From Schleiferia thermophila (GTDB lineage Bacteria > Bacteroidota > Bacteroidia > Flavobacteriales > Schleiferiaceae): a stretch of DNA of 64,000 nt. The notes beneath the pieces are model-generated. The model did no database searches. It saw nothing but the letters and a program-made list of their open reading frames with translations, and was not told where the DNA came from. This document shows, in pieces, positions 35,556 to 47,822 of the stretch (positions within the stretch are counted from its first letter, which is position 1; each line of letters opens with the position of its first letter). A program made the position numbers and the translations under genes. The DNA lies in NCBI RefSeq assembly GCF_003337435.1, contig NZ_QPJS01000001.1, positions 326,513 to 390,512 on the forward strand, read 5' to 3'.

Positions 35556-36170
35556 CTAGGAATTTTTTGCACCTTCTTTGGCCATATGCCTGTTTTCCAG
35601 TACAGAAATCACGTGCTTCAGATTCCTGCCTTTTGACTGGAGCAATATCAGAAAATGAAACAAAAGGTCTGCTGCTTCATGGAGAAATGTATCATCAGCA
35701 TTATTAGACACGGATTCTATTACCAGTTCTACGGCTTCTTCGCCTACTTTCTGGGCTATTCCGGGCAAGCCCCTGGCGAAAAGGTCAGCTGTGTACGAAT
35801 GTGTTTCAGGCTGTAGCCGGCGTTTGGCGATAATATTTTCCAGCTCGTACAGAAAGCTGTTCCCTTCATCGCCGAAACAGGACATGGTGCCTGTATGGCA
35901 AATGGGCCCTTCGGGCTCGGCAAGAACCAGCAGACAATCCTTGTCGCAGTCCAGCATTACATTTTTTACCTTGAGGATATTGCCGGAGGTTTCCCCTTTT
36001 GTCCAGAGGCGTGACTTACTCCGGCTGTAGAAGGTGACCATTTCAGTTTCAAGGGTCTTAACCCACGCTTCTTCATTCATATAGCCAAGCATGAGAACTG
36101 TTCCGGTCAGATGGTCTTGCACAATCGCGGGAACAAGACCGTCCATGTACTTGTCAAAATTTGGCTTCAT
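35556..36170 (-). CDS. hisIE: Bifunctional phosphoribosyl-AMP cyclohydrolase / phosphoribosyl-ATP diphosphatase
   Basis: This protein carries histidine biosynthesis steps 2 and 3 in one chain of 204 residues. The HisI half (about 1-110) has GTVLMLGYMNEEAW, RSRLWTKGETSGN and the metal/zinc ligands in MLDCDKDCLLVLAEPEGPICHTG. The HisE half (about 115-200) has FARGLPGIAQKVGEEAVELVIES and DLLFHFLILL. It is the last gene of the his operon and overlaps hisF by four bases. Confidence 0.96.
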   Translation of the reverse strand: MKPNFDKYMDGLVPAIVQDHLTGTVLMLGYMNEEAWVKTLETEMVTFYSRSKSRLWTKGETSGNILKVKNVMLDCDKDCLLVLAEPEGPICHTGTMSCFGDEGNSFLYELENIIAKRRLQPETHSYTADLFARGLPGIAQKVGEEAVELVIESVSNNADDTFLHEAADLLFHFLILLQSKGRNLKHVISVLENRHMAKEGAKNS

Positions 36171-36925
36171 CGTCTTACAGGTATTTTTTGTTGAAAAAGG
36201 AATTCTTTAATCTGCTGAATGGTAAAATTTTCGTAGTGGAGTATGCCGGCTGCCAGAGCGGCATCTGCCTGTCCTATGGTGAAAACTTCTGCAAAGTGGT
36301 GAAGAGCTCCGGCTCCTCCTGAAGCTATTATGGGCACTTGGACCAAAGAAGCTGCTTTTTTAGTCAGCTCGATGTCAAATCCAGCCCGTGTACCATCCCG
36401 ATTCATCGATGTGAGCAATATTTCACCTGCACCTCTGTCTACACCTTCTTGAATCCATTGAACAGCGTCTATATCAGTGGCCATAGTACCTCCTTTGAGA
36501 TACGCAATCCATTGGTACGGTGCGATTTGACGTGCGTCTACGGCCAATACGACGCATTGACTGCCAAATTCTTTGGCCATATCGGTGATGAGGTCTGGAT
36601 TTAGGAGTGCTGCAGTATTGATTGAAATTTTATCGGCCCCGTGATGAAGCAATGCAGCAGCATCTGCCACACTTTTTATTCCACCACCCACTGTAAAGGG
36701 TATGCTGATGCAGGATGCTACTCTGTATACCAGCTCAATCAAGGTTTTTCGCCCTTCGAGGGTCGCTGTAATATCCAAAAACACCAATTCATCCGCACCT
36801 TCCGAAGCATAGCGCGAGGCGAGTTCTACCGGATCTCCGGCATCTCTCAGGTGCAGAAAATGAGTCCCCTTCACGGTGCGACCGTCTTTTACATCCAGAC
36901 ATGGAATGATTCTTTTTGTCAGCAT
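36167..36925 (-). CDS. hisF: Imidazole glycerol phosphate synthase cyclase subunit
   Basis: HisF takes ammonia from HisH and closes the imidazole ring, forming imidazole-glycerol-phosphate and AICAR. The 252-residue (beta/alpha)8 barrel has IPCLDVKDGRTVKGTHF (catalytic Asp), ELVFLDITAT, IPFTVGGGIKS, and ILLTSMNRDGTRAGFDIEL (second catalytic Asp), then VPIIASGGAGALHHF. It is full length. The AICAR it releases re-enters purine synthesis through PurH, whose gene begins at 62620. Confidence 0.97.
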   Translation of the reverse strand: MLTKRIIPCLDVKDGRTVKGTHFLHLRDAGDPVELASRYASEGADELVFLDITATLEGRKTLIELVYRVASCISIPFTVGGGIKSVADAAALLHHGADKISINTAALLNPDLITDMAKEFGSQCVVLAVDARQIAPYQWIAYLKGGTMATDIDAVQWIQEGVDRGAGEILLTSMNRDGTRAGFDIELTKKAASLVQVPIIASGGAGALHHFAEVFTIGQADAALAAGILHYENFTIQQIKEFLFQQKIPVRR

Positions 36926-36929
36926 ATTT

Positions 36930-37658
36930 TTAAGCGTTTGATAGCAACCAGGCCTTTAACTCATGTAATTGAATGGTACCTTCATACAAGGCTTTGCCTA
37001 CAATGGCCCCCCAAAGACCTGCTTCTTTAAGGCGGTCCAGTTCACTTACGTGATGGATTCCCCCACTGGCTATAAGTTCTAAGTCGGGAAAGGTGCTCAG
37101 CACTTCGTTGTAGATGTCGGTAGAAGTGCCGGCAAGCATTCCATCGCGCGATATATCTGTACAGAAAAACCGCCGGATACCTTTGGCTCTGTATTGAGCT
37201 ATGAAGTCCTTTAAGGTTATTTCTGATATTTCAGTCCAGCCTCTCACTGCGAGTCTATGTTCTTTTATATCAGCGCCGGGCATAAATCGGTCTGGACCAA
37301 ATTGTTCGATCAACTGCAGCATCAGTTTCTGATTCTTTACAGCGAGAGTACCTACAGAAACCCTTGTAGCACCCGCAGCAAGAACAGCAGTTACATCCTT
37401 CTCTCCGGTAATGCCCCCACCGAAATCGATTTCCAGACCTGTATGAGTAGCGAGTTGCTCCAGCACTTTCAGATGAGTGATTTTGCCCAATCGGGCACCA
37501 TCGAGATCTACCACATGTAGGTAATTGATTCCTGCTGCCTCAAACTGTCGGGCTACATATACAGGGTCTGCATGGTAGGTTATGGCAGTACCATAGATGC
37601 CCTGCGACAACCGCACACATTTTCCATCCATCAGGTCTATTGCGGCAAATACTTTCAT
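36930..37658 (-). CDS. hisA: ProFAR isomerase
   Basis: HisA isomerises 5'-ProFAR to PRFAR. The 242-residue barrel has AIDLMDGKCVRLSQG with the catalytic Asp, YLHVVDLDGARLG, IDFGGGITGEKDV, and FFCTDISRDGMLAGTSTD with the second Asp, then LIASGGIHHVSEL. It lies four bases upstream of hisF and overlaps hisH by four bases. Confidence 0.97.
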   Translation of the reverse strand: MKVFAAIDLMDGKCVRLSQGIYGTAITYHADPVYVARQFEAAGINYLHVVDLDGARLGKITHLKVLEQLATHTGLEIDFGGGITGEKDVTAVLAAGATRVSVGTLAVKNQKLMLQLIEQFGPDRFMPGADIKEHRLAVRGWTEISEITLKDFIAQYRAKGIRRFFCTDISRDGMLAGTSTDIYNEVLSTFPDLELIASGGIHHVSELDRLKEAGLWGAIVGKALYEGTIQLHELKAWLLSNA

Positions 37659-38242
37659 GTCTTCAGTCTTAGGAAGTTTTTTAAAATCTGTAGTCCTGGT
37701 TCAGCTGATTTTTCCGGGTGAAATTGTACACCTCTGAAATTTAAGTGCCGTACAGCAGCTGAGTAGCTGATTCCATATTGGGCCTCTGCTATGGTACGGT
37801 CTCCTGTCTCCAGGTAATAACTATGCACAAAATATTGAAATTCTAGTTTTTTTAGCCCGAAAAAAAGCTCATCCTCAGCAAACTTCACGCAGTTCCAGCC
37901 GATCAAAGGAACTTTAAGTTTGGATGAAAATTTTTTTACTCTTCCTGCTATGATGTTTAAACCATCGGCATTTCCCTCATCCGAGCTTGTGCAGAGCAGT
38001 TGCATACCGAGGCATATTCCTAGAAATGGCTGTTGCAAAGAGCGGAGTATATGGTCTAAGCCTTTTTCCCGGAGATAATTCATAGCAGATGAGGCTTCAC
38101 CCACTCCAGGCAGTATCACTCGGTCAGCTTCTGCAATTTTGCCCGGATCATCGGTAATAACATAAGAGGCGCCTAATTTTTCCAAGGCAAATTTTACTGA
38201 AGTGATATTTCCTGCATTAAACTTTACTATTGCTACACTCAT
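37655..38242 (-). CDS. hisH: Imidazole glycerol phosphate synthase glutaminase subunit
   Basis: HisH is the class I glutamine amidotransferase partner of HisF. The 195-residue protein shows the oxyanion/nucleophile strand FLGICLGMQLLCTSSDEG with its Cys, the YFVHSYYLE segment, and the catalytic His-Glu in VQFHPEKSAEPGLQILKNF. It overlaps hisA by four bases and lies 33 bases downstream of hisB. Confidence 0.97.
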   Translation of the reverse strand: MSVAIVKFNAGNITSVKFALEKLGASYVITDDPGKIAEADRVILPGVGEASSAMNYLREKGLDHILRSLQQPFLGICLGMQLLCTSSDEGNADGLNIIAGRVKKFSSKLKVPLIGWNCVKFAEDELFFGLKKLEFQYFVHSYYLETGDRTIAEAQYGISYSAAVRHLNFRGVQFHPEKSAEPGLQILKNFLRLKT

Positions 38243-38275: not shown

Positions 38276-39391
38276 TTACAATACTCCTTTGGTGGTGGGC
38301 AACTGAAAGTTGCCTTTTTCACGTCTGATGGCCATCTTCAAAGCTCTTCCAAAAGCTTTGAAAATACTTTCTGCTTTGTGGTGTTCGTTTTTGCCTTTGG
38401 CCCGGATCAGCAGGTTGCATGCAGCTGCATCGCTAAAAGACTTAAAAAAGTGATACAACATTTCTGTCGGAAAATCGCCAATTTTTTCCCTCCGGAATTT
38501 TGCTTTCCAGACTAGCCATGGTCTGCCGCCAAAGTCTATTGCCACCAGAGCACGGCAATCGTCCATAGGCAATACAAATCCATATCGCTCCAAGCCCGAT
38601 TTATCGCTCAAGGCTGCTTTAAATGCCATTCCCAGAGCGAGTGCCGTGTCTTCTGCGGTGTGATGTTCGTCGATGTGCAGATCGCCTTTGGCAGCTACCG
38701 ACAGATCGATACCGGAATGTTTGGACATTTGCTCGAGCATGTGATCTAAAAACCCAATGCCGGTGCTAATCTGGTGGGCCTGCCCGCTGCCGTCAAGGTT
38801 AATTTCGACGGTGATATCTGTTTCAGCAGTTTTTCGACGAATTGCGGATTTACGGGGTGGCGAAATCAGAAACTCCTCTATTTCCTGCCAATGACCGGCC
38901 GTGAGTGCAATGGGCAGATGACTGCTCTCAGCAGCTTCGCTGTTATTAATGAGAATGGCTTTGCATCCGAGGTTTGCAGCCAGCTGTGCATCGGTGAGTC
39001 TGTCGCCTATCACAAAGGAGTTTTCCAAGTCATATTCTCCTGTTATGTAGCGCGTAAGCATAGCGATGCCGGGTTTTCTGGTGGGCAGATTTTCTTCAGG
39101 TCTGGAGCGGTCTATGTGGACTTCACTGAAATGGATGCCCACAGATTCCATAGTTCGTAGGATCAGCTGCTGAATGGGCTGAAATCTCTCTTCGGGATAG
39201 GTGTCTGTACCCAGGCCATCCTGATTGGTCACCATCACCAATCGATATCTTTCGGATTTGGCAATACGGCTTAGGGAGGTCAGCATTCCGGGCAAAAAAT
39301 CGACCTGTTCAAAGTGGTCGATTTGAAAGGTAACTGGTGGCTCTTTTACCAGTGTACCATCTCTGTCGATGAAGAGAATTTTTTCTTTCAT
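38276..39391 (-). CDS. hisB: Bifunctional histidinol-phosphatase / imidazoleglycerol-phosphate dehydratase
   Basis: The 371-residue fusion catalyses two histidine steps. The N-terminal HAD phosphatase (about 1-170) has LFIDRDGTLVKEPP and the metal-loop His/Cys region, plus FVIGDRLTDAQLAANLGCKAILI. The C-terminal dehydratase (about 180-371) has two manganese-binding repeats, HIDEHHTAEDTALALG and ENEHHKAESIFKAFGRAL (the latter read as KNEHHKAES). Overlap with hisC is four bases. Confidence 0.96.
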   Translation of the reverse strand: MKEKILFIDRDGTLVKEPPVTFQIDHFEQVDFLPGMLTSLSRIAKSERYRLVMVTNQDGLGTDTYPEERFQPIQQLILRTMESVGIHFSEVHIDRSRPEENLPTRKPGIAMLTRYITGEYDLENSFVIGDRLTDAQLAANLGCKAILINNSEAAESSHLPIALTAGHWQEIEEFLISPPRKSAIRRKTAETDITVEINLDGSGQAHQISTGIGFLDHMLEQMSKHSGIDLSVAAKGDLHIDEHHTAEDTALALGMAFKAALSDKSGLERYGFVLPMDDCRALVAIDFGGRPWLVWKAKFRREKIGDFPTEMLYHFFKSFSDAAACNLLIRAKGKNEHHKAESIFKAFGRALKMAIRREKGNFQLPTTKGVL

Positions 39392-40452
39392 GGATCAGTG
39401 GTTGTATCTATTTCCTTAAGCGCTTGTACTAAATGCAGAACTTCTTCAACAGTTCCAACAGTGATTCTCAGGCAGTTTTGGCAGTTGATTTCTTTTGAAC
39501 GGTTGCGGACAATAATGTGTCTCTGTCCCAGCAAGCGATACACTTCGTCAGCATTGTCAAATCGGACCAGCAGGAAGTTGGCATCCGATGGAAAGATATG
39601 TTTTACTCTGTTTAACTGGGATAATTCACGGGTCAGCAGCTGGCGGTTTACTTTGACTGATTCTTTGATTTTCAATGGGTAATCATGGTTTTTCAGCGCT
39701 TTAACTGCCATTTCCATCACCGGAGTGCTCAAATTATAGGGTAGTTTTACTTTGTTCATTGCCGAGATCACTTCGGGATGCGCTATGGCTATACCTACTC
39801 GCAGTGCAGCCAGTCCCCACAGTTTAGACAGCGTTTTCAGTACTATCAGATTCGGATGGTGCAGCACCTCCTGTGCCCAGGAAGTGCTTTCAGCAAAATC
39901 CATATAGGCTTCGTCCATCACCACTACTCCTTCAAAGTGTTGCAGAATTTCCAACACTCGCTGGTGATCCATGAGGTTACCGGTTGGATTGTTGGGGGAG
40001 CATAGAAAGAGCATCTCGGCTCCTGTTCCCTGCCGGATGATTCCGGGTACATCAGGCTGGAATTCATTATCAAGGGGCACCTTGATCACATTGAGCTCAT
40101 AGATTTCTGCCAAAACTTCATACATTCCATAGGTTGGTGGTAAAATGACCACACCGCTATGACCAGGTGTGCAGAACACTTTCATCAGCACATCGATAAC
40201 TTCATCGCTTCCGCTTCCGCAGAAGAGCATGTCTGCCGGAAGTTCTAACCTATCGGCCAGTACAGCCTTCAGTGCTTTGTGGCTAGGGTCGGGATAGCGA
40301 TGAAGGTCTTTGGCCACAGGTGAACCAAAGGGGTTTTCATTGGCGTCCAGAAAGATGCCTTGTGTGCCCTTGTATTCGTCTCTGGCAGTCGAGTAGGGCA
40401 CCATACGGCGGATATGAGGCCGCATCAGTTTACGTACATCTAAGTTTTTCAT
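39388..40452 (-). CDS. hisC: Histidinol-phosphate aminotransferase
   Basis: HisC is a fold-type I PLP aminotransferase converting imidazole-acetol phosphate to histidinol phosphate. The 354-residue protein has FLDANENPFGSP, FCGSGSDEVIDVLMKVFCTPG, LFLCSPNNPTGNLM, VVMDEAYMDFAES, the PLP lysine in VLKTLSKLWGLAALRVG, and LPYNLSTPV. It overlaps both neighbours by four bases. Confidence 0.96.
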   Translation of the reverse strand: MKNLDVRKLMRPHIRRMVPYSTARDEYKGTQGIFLDANENPFGSPVAKDLHRYPDPSHKALKAVLADRLELPADMLFCGSGSDEVIDVLMKVFCTPGHSGVVILPPTYGMYEVLAEIYELNVIKVPLDNEFQPDVPGIIRQGTGAEMLFLCSPNNPTGNLMDHQRVLEILQHFEGVVVMDEAYMDFAESTSWAQEVLHHPNLIVLKTLSKLWGLAALRVGIAIAHPEVISAMNKVKLPYNLSTPVMEMAVKALKNHDYPLKIKESVKVNRQLLTRELSQLNRVKHIFPSDANFLLVRFDNADEVYRLLGQRHIIVRNRSKEINCQNCLRITVGTVEEVLHLVQALKEIDTTTDP

Positions 40453-41738
40453 GTATACAATGCCTTTAGTCTGATTTCCACTGCCATGGCATGTGCTTCC
40501 AATTGCTCAGCTCTGGCCATGTGCACGATGGCCGGGCCGATCTGCTTAAGACCACCTTCTGTGATGTGTTGGAAGCTAATTTTTTTTACAAAGCTGTCAA
40601 GCGAAACCCCGCTGTAGACTCGGGCATACCCATTAGTAGGCAAGGTATGATTGGTGCCGGAGGCATAGTCACCGGCACTCTCCGGTGTGTAAGCACCTAA
40701 GAATACAGAGCCCGCATTTGTAATTTTTTCTTCATACCATTGGTGATCAACAGAGTGAATTATAAGGTGTTCCGGTGCGTATTGATTGGAAAAGGAAATC
40801 ATTTCTTCTCTGCTTTTAAAGACGATGCACCGGGAGTTTTTCAGAGAGGCCTCAGCTATTGCTTTTCTGGGTAATTTTTGAAGCAGATGCTCCAAAGCTG
40901 CCAGTACATCCATGGCCAGTTCAGGGCTATCGGTCAGCAGTATCACCTGCGAATCAGTTCCATGCTCAGCCTGAGAGAGCAGGTCTGATGCCACAAATGC
41001 CGGATTGGAGCCTTTCTCTGCCAGCACAAGTACTTCCGACGGACCAGCAGGTAGATCAATTGCGACTCCGAATCTCTGAGCCTGAAGCTTTGCCTCGGTC
41101 ACATACTGATTTCCCGGTCCGAAAATTTTATCCACTCTGGGGATGCATGCTGTGCCGAACGTCATGGCTGCTATGGCCTGAGCTCCTCCACATGCTCGTA
41201 TCTGGTTCAATTTTAGGCGTTCAGATACATATAGAATTTCATCAGCAATTCTCCCGCTCTTGTCTGGCGGTGTACATACCACAATTTCTTTGCAACCCGC
41301 TATCTTAGCAGGAACCGCCAGCATTATAAGAGTAGAGAAGAGAGGTGCCGTACCTCCTGGTATGTACAGACCTACCCGCTCAATAGGTACAGACCTTCTC
41401 CAACATTCTACACCTGGTATCGTTTCAACTTTGGCGACGAATTCTGCCTGGGATTGGTGAAACTTATCAATATTGGATATCGCCAGCTCGATTGCCTCTT
41501 TTACCTCTTGCTTGATTCTGCCAGCCGCCGTAGACATCATTTCCCGACTTACCAACAGCGAGGAAGCATCAGGATAATCAAATTTTCTTGTGTACCTCAG
41601 CACAGCCTTGTCTCCTTCCGTTTTTACCTCCTCCATGATGGTTTTTACTATTTGGCTGAGGTCATGACTATCAAATGAAGCTCTTTTGCAGAGAACATCC
41701 CACTGTTCTCGTTTTGGATTTACTACTAGGTTCATCAT
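40449..41738 (-). CDS. hisD: Histidinol dehydrogenase
   Basis: HisD is a Zn, NAD-dependent four-electron oxidase converting histidinol to histidine. The 429-residue protein has VGLYIPGGTAPLFSTLIMLAVPA, KIFGPGNQYVTEAK, VAIDLPAGPSEVLVLAE, DLLSQAEHGTDSQVIL (Zn ligands), PEHLIIHS and GAYTPESAGDYASGTNHTLPT. It lies between hisG and hisC with four-base overlaps on both sides. Confidence 0.97.
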   Translation of the reverse strand: MMNLVVNPKREQWDVLCKRASFDSHDLSQIVKTIMEEVKTEGDKAVLRYTRKFDYPDASSLLVSREMMSTAAGRIKQEVKEAIELAISNIDKFHQSQAEFVAKVETIPGVECWRRSVPIERVGLYIPGGTAPLFSTLIMLAVPAKIAGCKEIVVCTPPDKSGRIADEILYVSERLKLNQIRACGGAQAIAAMTFGTACIPRVDKIFGPGNQYVTEAKLQAQRFGVAIDLPAGPSEVLVLAEKGSNPAFVASDLLSQAEHGTDSQVILLTDSPELAMDVLAALEHLLQKLPRKAIAEASLKNSRCIVFKSREEMISFSNQYAPEHLIIHSVDHQWYEEKITNAGSVFLGAYTPESAGDYASGTNHTLPTNGYARVYSGVSLDSFVKKISFQHITEGGLKQIGPAIVHMARAEQLEAHAMAVEIRLKALYT

Positions 41739-42607
41739 TCAATCATTTTTTCAATCGGTATTACTAAAATTCCTTCAGCTCCCTGGGTTTTGAGCTCTTC
41801 GATGATGTCCCAGAAGCGGTCTTCCTGCACAACGGAGTGCACAGAACTCCAGCCTTCCATAGCCAGGGGAAGTACCGTAGGACTCTTCATCCCAGGTAGT
41901 ACGCGGAAGATGGACTGGAGTTTTTCGTTTGGGGCATTGAGAAGGATGTACTTGTTGTTCACGGCTTTTTTTACCGCCTGAATTCTGAATATCAATTTTT
42001 TCAGAATTTCTTCTTTTGCCTCTGTAAGTGTTTTGTTTCCCACCAGCACTGCCTGGCTTTTCATCACCACCTCTACTTCTTTCAGTCCGTTAGCCAGCAG
42101 GGTGCTTCCCGTGCTTACCAGGTCGCAGATGGCATCGGCCAGGCCGATGCCAGGTGCAATCTCCACTGAGCCGCTGATGGGGTGTATTTCTGCTTTCACC
42201 CCACGGTGATGAAGAAATCCGCTGAGAATGCGTCCATAGCTTGTAGCGATACGCTTTCCCTCAAGCCATTTCAGACCATCGTATGCCTGTTGCTTAGGCA
42301 CAGCGATGCTGAGCCTGCACTTTCCAAAACCTAGCTCTTCTAGTATCCTCACGTCCGAGCCCTTCTCTGCCAGCACATTCTGACCCACAATGCCGATGTC
42401 CGCTATACCATCCGTTACATATTGAGGGATGTCGTCATCTCTGAAAAAGAATACTTCAACCGGAAAATTTTCAGCTTCCACTTTCAGTTTCCCCGAACCG
42501 TTAAACAGCGATATACCACACTCTTTCAGCAGTTTTACAGAGTCTTCGTGCAGTCTGCCAGATTTCTGCAACGCCAGGGTAAGTTTGATGTCCTTCTTAT
42601 TGCTCAT
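41735..42607 (-). CDS. hisG: ATP phosphoribosyltransferase, long form
   Basis: HisG catalyses the first and feedback-controlled step of histidine synthesis. The 290-residue length shows the long form with a C-terminal ACT-like regulatory domain (about 215-290), so no HisZ partner is needed. Features include LTLALQKSGRLHEDSVKLLKECG, FFRDDDIPQYVTDGIADIGIVGQNVL, RIATSYGRILSGFL, and the PRPP loop ADAICDLVSTGSTLLANGL. It is the first structural gene of hisGDCBHAFIE and sits 34 bases after the attenuator terminator. Confidence 0.97.
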   Translation of the reverse strand: MSNKKDIKLTLALQKSGRLHEDSVKLLKECGISLFNGSGKLKVEAENFPVEVFFFRDDDIPQYVTDGIADIGIVGQNVLAEKGSDVRILEELGFGKCRLSIAVPKQQAYDGLKWLEGKRIATSYGRILSGFLHHRGVKAEIHPISGSVEIAPGIGLADAICDLVSTGSTLLANGLKEVEVVMKSQAVLVGNKTLTEAKEEILKKLIFRIQAVKKAVNNKYILLNAPNEKLQSIFRVLPGMKSPTVLPLAMEGWSSVHSVVQEDRFWDIIEELKTQGAEGILVIPIEKMIE

Positions 42608-42640
42608 GAATCTGTGAGTTGTCTGTTTTGCAAAAGGTTA

Positions 42641-42679
42641 AAAAACAAAAAAGGCTTACCGGATTGCGGTAAGCCTTTT
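42641..42679 (-). terminator. his attenuator terminator
   Basis: On the minus strand, AAAAGGCTTACCG and CGGTAAGCCTTTT form a perfect 13-bp stem around CAATC, followed by TTTTGTTTTT-type tail. It lies between the His-rich leader peptide and hisG, so it should stop transcription when histidine is plentiful. Its 5' arm (42666-42675) is complementary, with two G-U pairs, to bases 42714-42723 inside the leader ORF, giving an alternative antiterminator. Confidence 0.88.
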
Positions 42680-42709
42680 CTGCAGGAAAGTCAATCTTTG
42701 CAACGACAG

Positions 42710-42760
42710 CTACAGCCTACCGCGGGGGCGGAGGTGCAGATGATGATGCAAAGTCGACAT
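42710..42760 (-). CDS. hisL: Histidine operon leader peptide (HisL-like)
   Basis: A 16-residue ORF reads MSTLHHHLHLRPRGRL, with codons CAT CAT CAT CTG CAC at positions 5-9. An AAAGGA sequence sits just upstream of its ATG, a plausible ribosome site. It starts about 18 bases after a well-formed promoter and ends 31 bases before the terminator stem. Four His codons in a short ORF directly before a terminator and the his genes are the hallmark of ribosome-mediated attenuation, as in the enterobacterial his operon. Stalling at the His codons would free the GCGGTAGGCT segment (42714-42723) to pair with the terminator 5' arm and allow readthrough. Confidence 0.85.
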   Translation of the reverse strand: MSTLHHHLHLRPRGRL

Positions 42761-42777
42761 AATTCCTTTCACAGCCG

Positions 42778-42807
42778 CAAAAATAACACTGTTGATTACT
42801 CTCGCAA
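42778..42807 (-). promoter_or_regulatory. his operon promoter (-33 TTG, -7 TATTTTTG)
   Basis: On the minus strand TTG (42805-42807) is followed by 19 bases and TATTTTTG (42785-42778), an exact match to the Bacteroidota consensus with normal spacing. Transcription should start near 42772, about 12 bases before the leader-peptide ATG. Confidence 0.75.
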
Positions 42808-42936
42808 GAGGTTAGTGACATGATTTTCATCCTTTGCATTTATTAAAAAATCTATAAATGACTCCATCCCGGCCATACTCAATCGTTAATTGTCATCTAT
42901 CGGGTCAATAAAATCCCCTGACACAATTCAATTGCT

Positions 42937-42944
42937 TATTTTTG
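42937..42944 (+). promoter_or_regulatory. Candidate -7 element for bamD operon
   Basis: TATTTTTG matches TAnnTTTG and ends eight bases before the bamD ATG at 42953, implying a very short 5' leader. No clear TTG at the normal distance. Confidence 0.42.
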
Positions 42945-42952
42945 CGCGCTTC

Positions 42953-43774
42953 ATGAAGGGTATCAAATTTCTATTTGCGGTATTGGCTTTTGGTCTGCTG
43001 TTCACTTCCTGCAGTGAATACAGCAAGGTATTAAAATCCAACGATTTGAATTACAAATTTGAAATGGCCAAAAAGTACTACGACAAAAAAAAGTACAACA
43101 AGGCCTACCCCATCTTTGATGAACTCCTCAATCTATATCGCGGTACAGCACAGGCTGAAGAAGTATACTATTATTACAGCATGACCCTGTATAAACTGGA
43201 AGATTACATGCTGGCGGCCTACCATTTCAAAAACTTTTATCGCACTTTCCCGCAGAGCAAATACGCTGATGAAGCCGCCTTCATGACCGGATATTGCTAC
43301 TACCTGGAGTCGCCGGTCTATTCCCTTGACCAGACCTACACCATCAAAGCCATCAACGAACTACAACTCTACATCAACACACATCCCAAAAGCACACGCA
43401 TCGAACAATGTAATGAACTCATCATTGAGCTGCGTCAGAAACTCGAGCGCAAAAACTTCGAACGCGCCAAACAATATTACACCACCATGCAATACCAGGC
43501 TGCCATTGTGGCTTTAAACAATGTACTCAACGATTTCCCCGAAACCAGATACAGAGAAGAAATACTGCTCCTCTTGCTCAGAAGCAACTACGAATTGGCC
43601 CGCTTCTCCATCGAAAGCAAAAAACTCCAGCGCTTTATCGAAACCCGCAAAGCCTGCGAAGACTTCCTCGAGCGCTATCCCGACAGCCGCTTTGCCAAAG
43701 AGGCCTCAACCATTCGTGAAAGAGCAATGTTTCAAATTGAATTTTTAAAAGAGAATCAGGAATATGGAAGCTAA
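42953..43774 (+). CDS. bamD: Outer membrane protein assembly factor BamD
   Basis: BamD is the essential TPR lipoprotein of the BAM complex that inserts outer-membrane barrels. The start is ATG 42953, giving a lipoprotein signal MKGIKFLFAVLAFGLLFTSC (Cys20) and 273 residues; the open frame upstream to 42890 is not used. TPR helices run through the whole mature chain: KKYNKAYPIFDELLNLYRGT, AEEVYYYYSMTLYKLEDYMLAAYHFKNFYRTFP, YQAAIVALNNVLNDFPETRYREEI, RKACEDFLERYPDSRFAKEA. It heads the conserved block bamD-rpoZ-coaBC-porD and overlaps rpoZ by 11 bases. Confidence 0.92.
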   Translation: MKGIKFLFAVLAFGLLFTSCSEYSKVLKSNDLNYKFEMAKKYYDKKKYNKAYPIFDELLNLYRGTAQAEEVYYYYSMTLYKLEDYMLAAYHFKNFYRTFPQSKYADEAAFMTGYCYYLESPVYSLDQTYTIKAINELQLYINTHPKSTRIEQCNELIIELRQKLERKNFERAKQYYTTMQYQAAIVALNNVLNDFPETRYREEILLLLLRSNYELARFSIESKKLQRFIETRKACEDFLERYPDSRFAKEASTIRERAMFQIEFLKENQEYGS

Positions 43775-47417: not shown

Positions 47418-47439
47418 GCCGTACAGATAAAAAAACGAA

Positions 47440-47822
47440 AAGCCTGAGCTGTAAGCCGGATTCTGTACCCCTTTAGGGGTTTCTGTCATTTATCTGTTGC
47501 GGCCTACCCACTGCTCATACGCACCGGGCCAGTGCGACGGTCTGCTTTAAGCAGACCCTTGGCAGTTTATTTGGCCTTGCTACGCACAAGGTTTGCCATG
47601 CCTACGCCGTTACCGGTCGTAGCGGTGGGCTCTTACTCCACCTTTTCACCCTTACCTGCACTCATCAGAATGCAGGCGGTATGTTTTCTGTGGCACTATC
47701 TGTCAGCAGCCCTTTACGACTGCTGCCCTGCCTTTCGGCAGGTGTGCTGCCCTGTGTAGTCCGGACTTTCCTCACCCGACCGACCCATTGGTCAGCCGGG
47801 CGCGACAGAACGCTCAGGCTTT
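47440..47822 (-). ncRNA. rnpB: RNase P RNA (class A)
   Basis: Read on the minus strand, the RNA starts AAGCCTGAGCG and contains the universal GAGGAAAGTCCGGAC (CR-I) and, near the 3' end, ACAGAATCCGGCTTAC (CR-V). The ends pair as P1 (GCCTGAGC with GCTCAGGC). Intermediate helices such as CCTGCCGAAAGGCAGG and GGTCTGCTTAAAGCAGACC are clear. It cleaves tRNA 5' leaders. The length of about 380 nt is normal. Several small open frames across it on both strands are fortuitous. Confidence 0.95.

Follow-up and report, generated by a model that had tools for sequence, protein, structure and literature searches.

The window, a 64,000-nucleotide stretch of DNA from Schleiferia thermophila, very probably carries a ribosome-mediated transcription attenuator of its histidine operon. 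This reading, put forward in an earlier note made from the sequence alone, is supported by elements that are correctly ordered and spaced and are conserved, and by an antiterminator that coevolves with the terminator. Sequence comparison establishes the elements, their conservation and this coevolution; we infer that the leader ORF is translated, that ribosomes stall on it and that the operon responds to histidine. Transcription would begin just upstream of a 16-codon leader. With ample charged His-tRNA, the leading ribosome at the stop codon would cover segment 2, segment 3 would pair with segment 4, and the resulting terminator would end transcription before hisG. With charged His-tRNA scarce, the ribosome would wait on a His codon and the free segment 2 would pair with segment 3, blocking the terminator and allowing transcription of hisGDCBHAFI(E).

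The histidine leader region of the window

The promoter lies where the earlier note had placed it on the minus strand, as TTG-N19-TATTTTTG (Table 1). It is of the Bacteroidota type, and TATTTTTG corresponds to TANNTTTG, which we take to be the -7 consensus of the phylum. A generic sigma-70 scan did not list this promoter, a result of little weight for one of the Bacteroidota type. The AAAGGA site (42769-42764, minus strand) and the ORF MSTLHHHLHLRPRGRL, running from the ATG at 42760 to the TAG at 42710, were likewise found as described. Four of the 16 codons of this ORF encode His (codons 5, 6, 7 and 9; 42748-42740 and 42736-42734), giving the his operon a short upstream ORF in which codons for the regulating amino acid abound.

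Table 1. Coordinates of leader, terminator and operon features in the window (position 1 is its first letter)
Feature	Position	Strand	Basis
TTG, -33-like promoter element	42805..42807	-	sequence
TATTTTTG, -7-like promoter element	42778..42785	-	sequence
Leader ORF MSTLHHHLHLRPRGRL, stop included	42710..42760	-	sequence; class-wide His-rich leaders
His codons CAT CAT CAT (CTG) CAC	42734..42748	-	sequence
Segment 2, antiterminator strand GCGGTAGGCT, inside the end of the leader ORF	42714..42723	-	folding, duplex, class-wide coevolution
Segment 3, part of terminator 5' arm and first loop base, partner of segment 2	42666..42675	-	sequence, duplex, coevolution
Intrinsic terminator hairpin (3:4), 17 pairs, 13 perfect	42645..42683	-	folding, sequence
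T-rich run of terminator	42640..42652	-	sequence
Terminator-to-hisG gap	42608..42644	-	segment 5 p 0.22; start pairing p 0.34
hisG	41735..42607	-	TIGR00070 and TIGR03455 above cut-off
hisD	40449..41738	-	TIGR00069 above cut-off
hisC	39388..40452	-	TIGR01141 above cut-off
hisB, bifunctional	38276..39391	-	NF003937 above cut-off
hisH	37655..38242	-	TIGR01855 above cut-off
Block hisA + hisF + hisI/E	35556..37658	-	names assigned from the ORF translations
hisA (presumed)	36930..37658	-	translation
hisF (presumed)	36167..36925	-	translation
hisI/E (presumed)	35556..36170	-	translation

Sequence and folding both place an intrinsic terminator between the leader ORF and the first gene. The perfect 13-bp hairpin with a T-run anticipated earlier is present as AAAAGGCTTACCG-CAATC-CGGTAAGCCTTTT (42679-42649, minus strand) and reaches 17 pairs when the outer ones are counted (42683-42645). 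Leader and terminator together fold with z = -9.2, and none of 200 dinucleotide shuffles folded as well. One strand of the terminator also belongs to the antiterminator, which overlaps the leader ORF past its regulatory codons. As had been claimed, GCGGTAGGCT can pair with GGCTTACCGC over ten bases, two of them as G-U; these ten pairs plus four more are contained in the best duplex of leader and terminator arm (-23.3 kcal/mol, where 200 shuffled leaders average -13.0; p 0.005).

With a ribosome decoding the His codons, whose first bases run from 42748 to 42736, the start of the antiterminator strand lies 25 nt downstream of the A site at the first such codon and 13 nt at the last. A ribosome footprint extends about 12-15 nt downstream, and the spacing therefore fits a ribosome that leaves segment 2 free while on the His codons, although perhaps not at the last one (13 nt), and that covers it when on the leader stop codon. 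RNA free of ribosomes is also predicted to form a long hairpin closing the leader ORF, and this hairpin would favour termination if the leader were untranslated.

The terminator is followed by hisG, confirmed by NCBIfam profiles, with its ATG at 42607 on the minus strand. The genes under control make the amino acid that would be sensed, as hisG, hisD, hisC, hisB and hisH are each recognised by an NCBIfam profile. Elsewhere, the window encodes a class A RNase P RNA (47436-47821, minus strand; RF00010, 248.8 bits).

Leaders, terminators and antiterminators across the class

Searches recovered hisG from 66 of 198 relatives, from 211 of 395 genomes belonging to the order and from 127 of 295 belonging to the class, three overlapping sets in which the window's genome is included. 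The upstream regions used came from 66 hisG places in the relatives, 40 in the order and 80 in the class, the latter two groups hand-chosen to cover genus and family codes. A leader was scored as His-rich when an ATG ORF within 320 nt before hisG had three or more His among eight codons. Such a leader precedes hisG in 152 of 171 loci of the class, the window included, and contains four or more His in 129 of them; the reverse strand gave 6 of 171 and shuffled sequences 70 of 3420. Not counted are the 14 loci of one family (f16), L032, which was located in the wrong place, and L067, which lacked a 5' hit. The ATG His leader was not detected in 19 of the 171 loci, including all five of family f58 and both of f78.

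A second sample comprised 80 records close to the window HisG, many of them from Chitinophagaceae and including Chitinophaga, Niastella, Pontibacter, Algoriphagus and Marivirga. Here 77 have a His-rich leader, one via a non-ATG start, and one of the three leader-less records has only 10 nt upstream. Within the hisG loci sampled, control by a leader peptide appears nearly universal for the class. The promoter recurs as well: TANNTTTG occurs within 60 nt upstream of the leader ATG in 116 of the 152 loci (mean 6.1, maximum 14 in 200 single-base shuffles), with TTG N17-21 ahead of it in 64 of the 152, a count made without a control.

The earlier note would have taken its reading as refuted if the leader ORF or the two alternative stems were not conserved in close relatives, and this comparison turned out in favour of the reading. 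Leader, terminator and antiterminator recur throughout the class, and the antiterminator covaries. We examined the latter in 36 loci from 20 family codes whose terminator core is GGCTTNC- or GGCTTNNC-like, as in the window. At the leader end, most of these loci have a GGTAGGC- or GGTAAGC-like strand able to pair with the terminator core. Leaders pair with their own arm at -14.3 kcal/mol versus -12.6 with swapped arms, a difference matched in 0 of 10,000 permutations, a figure that overstates certainty because related loci are not independent. Individually, the pairing reaches p <= 0.05 in 23 of the 36 loci and in 41 of the 51 loci of a first set that includes the window; in the remaining 13 and 10, respectively, the helix taken alone falls short of significance.

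This coevolution bears on the possibility that the leader peptide controls translation of hisG, with the hairpin incidental to it. All nine loci of family f55 (L173, L176, L177, L179-L181, L183-L185) have a His leader and none has an intrinsic terminator by our rule, indicating that a leader is not always tied to terminator output, and the hisG start codon of many relatives can be masked by a segment upstream of it (see below). The window terminator, however, is strong and has a T-rich run, terminators of its type coevolve with the leader, and the gap before hisG shows no significant pairing with the start codon (p 0.34), so that we consider translational control alone very improbable for the window. 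About half of the f55 loci carry a TGTATGTTTCTACGYGAA-like stretch after the leader.

Control of the terminator by some other sensor, be it a T-box, a metabolite riboswitch or a protein, with the His codons coincidental, is less probable still. We found nothing that favours it, apart from the T-boxes that passages of PMC9413887 place ahead of Firmicutes his operons; against it, the window leader contains no Rfam family at its gathering score, no T-box match was found there, and His-rich ORFs recur at the same place class-wide. The least credible alternative is a hairpin with no regulatory role, either an ordinary terminator or a decayed leftover: family f16 offers a parallel, with a rule-found hairpin in 12 of 14 loci and a His-rich leader in 0 of 14, but leader, antiterminator and terminator are all intact in the window, and the next long ORF upstream of the leader (42890-43774, a predicted ORF only) points in the opposite direction, leaving the terminator without another obvious job.

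The f16 genomes are 0.6 Mb in size and probably Blattabacterium-like. The two f16 loci in which the rule found no hairpin have the same inverted repeat without a T run. Eight of the 14 (L012, L018, L020, L021, L027, L028, L033, L036) carry ATGCATTAA, encoding Met-His-stop, shortly past the promoter motif TATATTTGC. This is perhaps a vestigial or minimal leader.

An additional segment ahead of hisG in relatives

Many relatives of the window carry a further segment, which we call segment 5, between terminator and hisG. In many loci whose terminator is CCCGTYTGAGTAAA-like, the upper 5' arm and loop have a complement downstream, for example TTTACTCAGAC. The pairing of segment 5 with the terminator 5' arm and loop was tested in 150 loci, namely the 171 minus 20 without a rule-found terminator and one with too short a gap. 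It passed our cut-off (RNAduplex p <= 0.035 and at least 7 pairs) in 64, where about five are expected by chance; 58 of these belong to the window's order and six to other families of the class. Examples include L022, L025, L030, L037, L043, L062, L064, L106 and L155; L080 is also counted, and its pairing looks accidental. Segment 5 lies 12-31 nt before the hisG ATG (sd 3.9) and 0-49 nt from the terminator (sd 11.1), and this tighter spacing to the ATG makes it look anchored to the start codon. Many loci, in family f3 and others, have the CCCGTYTGAGTAAA-like terminator type without segment 5 (L006, L019, L026, L047, L070).

The pairing of segment 5 with the terminator loop is well supported by covariation. 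In 90 loci of the order unselected for segment 5, own pairs average -11.25 kcal/mol versus -8.06 for swapped ones (0 of 10,000 permutations as good). Of the 64 segment-5 loci, 63 entered this comparison, as L051 lacked the anchor. In an unbiased test, the site was picked by CTCA and position, and four loop positions not used in picking were scored: 181 of 224 are paired, whereas 10,000 permutations average 153.6 (sd 3.7) and never exceed 171. This test omitted 25 of 81 TGAG terminators without a CTCA site; 7 of the 25 have a segment 5 with CTCG or TTCA instead, two are of the window type and none of the others passes. Loop and segment covary within genus code g21 (GTAAA/TTTAC, GTACA/TGTAC, GCACA/TGTGC and GTATA/TATAC, the last in L042, where the pairing reaches only p 0.065) and within g87 (GTTTT with AAAAC or AGAAC). 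The window has no significant segment 5 in its terminator-hisG gap (p 0.22). A candidate, TGCAGAAAAGG with CCTTTTGCA, was suggestive by eye and was rejected (p 0.24 and 0.22).

Segment 5 probably also pairs with the hisG start, which in relatives is often ATGAGTAAA (Met-Ser-Lys). The segment-5 region and the start pair at a mean of -11.4 kcal/mol in the 64 loci, versus -9.5 when permuted (0 of 10,000) and -5.8 in 73 other loci, although 11 of the 64 do not reach -9 kcal/mol. In L037, which has a divergent hisG start, the segment follows the change (ATGAACACCC with GGGTTGTTCA). Unbiased site choice gives weaker support to the start pairing (165 of 204 positions versus 156.9; 99 of 10,000 permutations as good) than to the loop pairing in the same 51 loci (0 of 10,000). 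In 32 loci whose loop differs from the start, both pair equally well with the segment (96 of 128 positions each).

RNA polymerase would be past the terminator by the time segment 5 is made, and segment 5 should therefore have no effect on the terminator; its target would be the read-through mRNA and most likely the translation of hisG. These bacteria probably initiate translation largely without Shine-Dalgarno pairing. A role of segment 5 in hisG translation is likely, and a second switch acting there could work in either direction.

For the relatives, and not for the window, we speculate, giving the idea slightly less than an even chance, that the attenuator of a large set of them is a two-layer switch, with the terminator loop serving as decoy to an anti-start segment. 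The terminator loop and upper 5' arm would imitate the hisG start (TGAGTAAA compared with ATGAGTAAA), and segment 5, complementary to both, would either hide the start codon or be sequestered by the terminator strand. Transcription and hisG translation would then be set together by one leader ribosome, the decoy probably acting during transcription before the start codon is made.

Folding did not support a simple equilibrium version of the decoy, in that the start codon is hidden in both states. Over 63 loci, the start is unpaired at 0.35 with a ribosome on the His codons and strand 4 withheld, versus 0.34 in the off state; it is more open with the ribosome on His in 44 of the 63, and by more than 0.2 in only 3. 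Forcing the 3:5 pairing costs 0 to 12.5 kcal/mol relative to the best fold in 20 chosen loci. With strands 2 and 4 both withheld, 3:5 beats the pairing of segment 5 with the start in 33 of 63 loci. When the RNA is cut just after segment 5 and strand 4 is withheld, 3:5 forms at least 4 pairs in 55 of 63, and such wide formation is seen only with the RNA cut before the start codon exists. A co-transcriptional decoy thus survives folding, on the assumption that strand 4 is unavailable.

Relation to known attenuators and to the hisG lineage

The enterobacterial his leader (hisL) combines a His-codon peptide, a terminator before hisG and an antiterminator exclusive with that terminator under a stall logic. 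The window resembles hisL (RF00514) in all these respects and differs in that three competing strands suffice. It is not an instance of the RF00514 His_leader family, with no match at the gathering score or at E <= 5 (42560-42860). In a scan of 14 loci including that of the window (L001), RF00514 scored 36.5 bits in L025, 33.9 in L064 and 32 in L062, with gathering set at 49. Vitreschak et al. 2004 is said to mention attenuators in Bacteroidetes.

The earlier note had described enterobacterial logic in a phylum where it is much less documented. The logic fits, but signs of it are in print. Passages of PMC9723704 report a structured element before hisG in Flavobacterium psychrophilum, common to other Flavobacteriaceae and without an Rfam match, and 'strong clues' for leader-peptide attenuation ahead of amino-acid operons in that species. 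This element stands before the same gene as in the window and, we infer, in the same order-level group; the section concerned gives neither sequence nor mechanism for it, and it is likely identical with the elements found here. Since signs of attenuation in Flavobacteriaceae have been published (PMC9723704), we count the window attenuator as a known kind, and its locus is unexceptional within a type spread across the class.

Two further systems serve as comparators. The his attenuators that passages of PMC9413887 describe in the Bacillus cereus group, Eubacteriales and Erysipelotrichales belong to another phylum and share with the window a His-rich leader (three to five in a row there), a terminator and an antiterminator; transfer of the operon together with its attenuator is also proposed there. 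The Bacillus subtilis vmlR leader, in which passages of PMC9226507 tie one ORF to both transcription and translation attenuation, is a comparator for the possible two-layer design of the relatives, a second layer of which the window shows no sign. It differs in sensing antibiotics rather than histidine and in not serving a biosynthetic operon. PMC8632094 gives no match for hisG or 'Bacteroid'. Among the open-licence papers listed for Bacteroidetes or Flavobacteria leader peptides and for two-output attenuators, we recognised no description of pairing between terminator loop and hisG start.

The HisG tree comprises 54 hand-picked rows and was built by a quick method with SH-aLRT only. The window falls in a 17-row group (support 96) with L002 of its own family, families f43 and f36, Chitinophagaceae and f16, and 13 of the 17 rows have the window terminator type. 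Other rows of its own family (L022, L025, L037) lie elsewhere and have another terminator type. The segment-5 type requires 4 changes on the tree, versus 16.9 in shuffles (0 of 500 as low). The window HisG (41735-42607) has its closest counterparts outside its own order, at 72% in a family-f43 genome and up to 71% in Chitinophaga, compared with at most 67% among order matches in the relatives set. Attenuator type tracks the hisG lineage more than the host family on this tree, so the attenuator may be carried along when the operon moves. The two could have been transferred jointly, although the tree is no proof of this.

In L234, L236, L239, L240, L250 and L251 (Pontibacter, Marivirga, Algoriphagus, Marinigracilibium), leaders end in HHFHHSS-like sequence and a CCTC..GAGG inverted repeat spans the leader stop codon. 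The window terminator type, the only one sought, was not recognised by pattern in the tree rows L234, L236, L240 and L251. L234 has a short hairpin with T's.

The apparent near-universality of leader control in the class stands beside the fact that no Rfam model reached gathering either in the window or in any of the 14 scanned loci. The three-strand attenuator of the window is a version that is simple to test. In its relatives, the covarying pairing of terminator loop and hisG start would, if regulatory, make a two-layer amino-acid attenuator.
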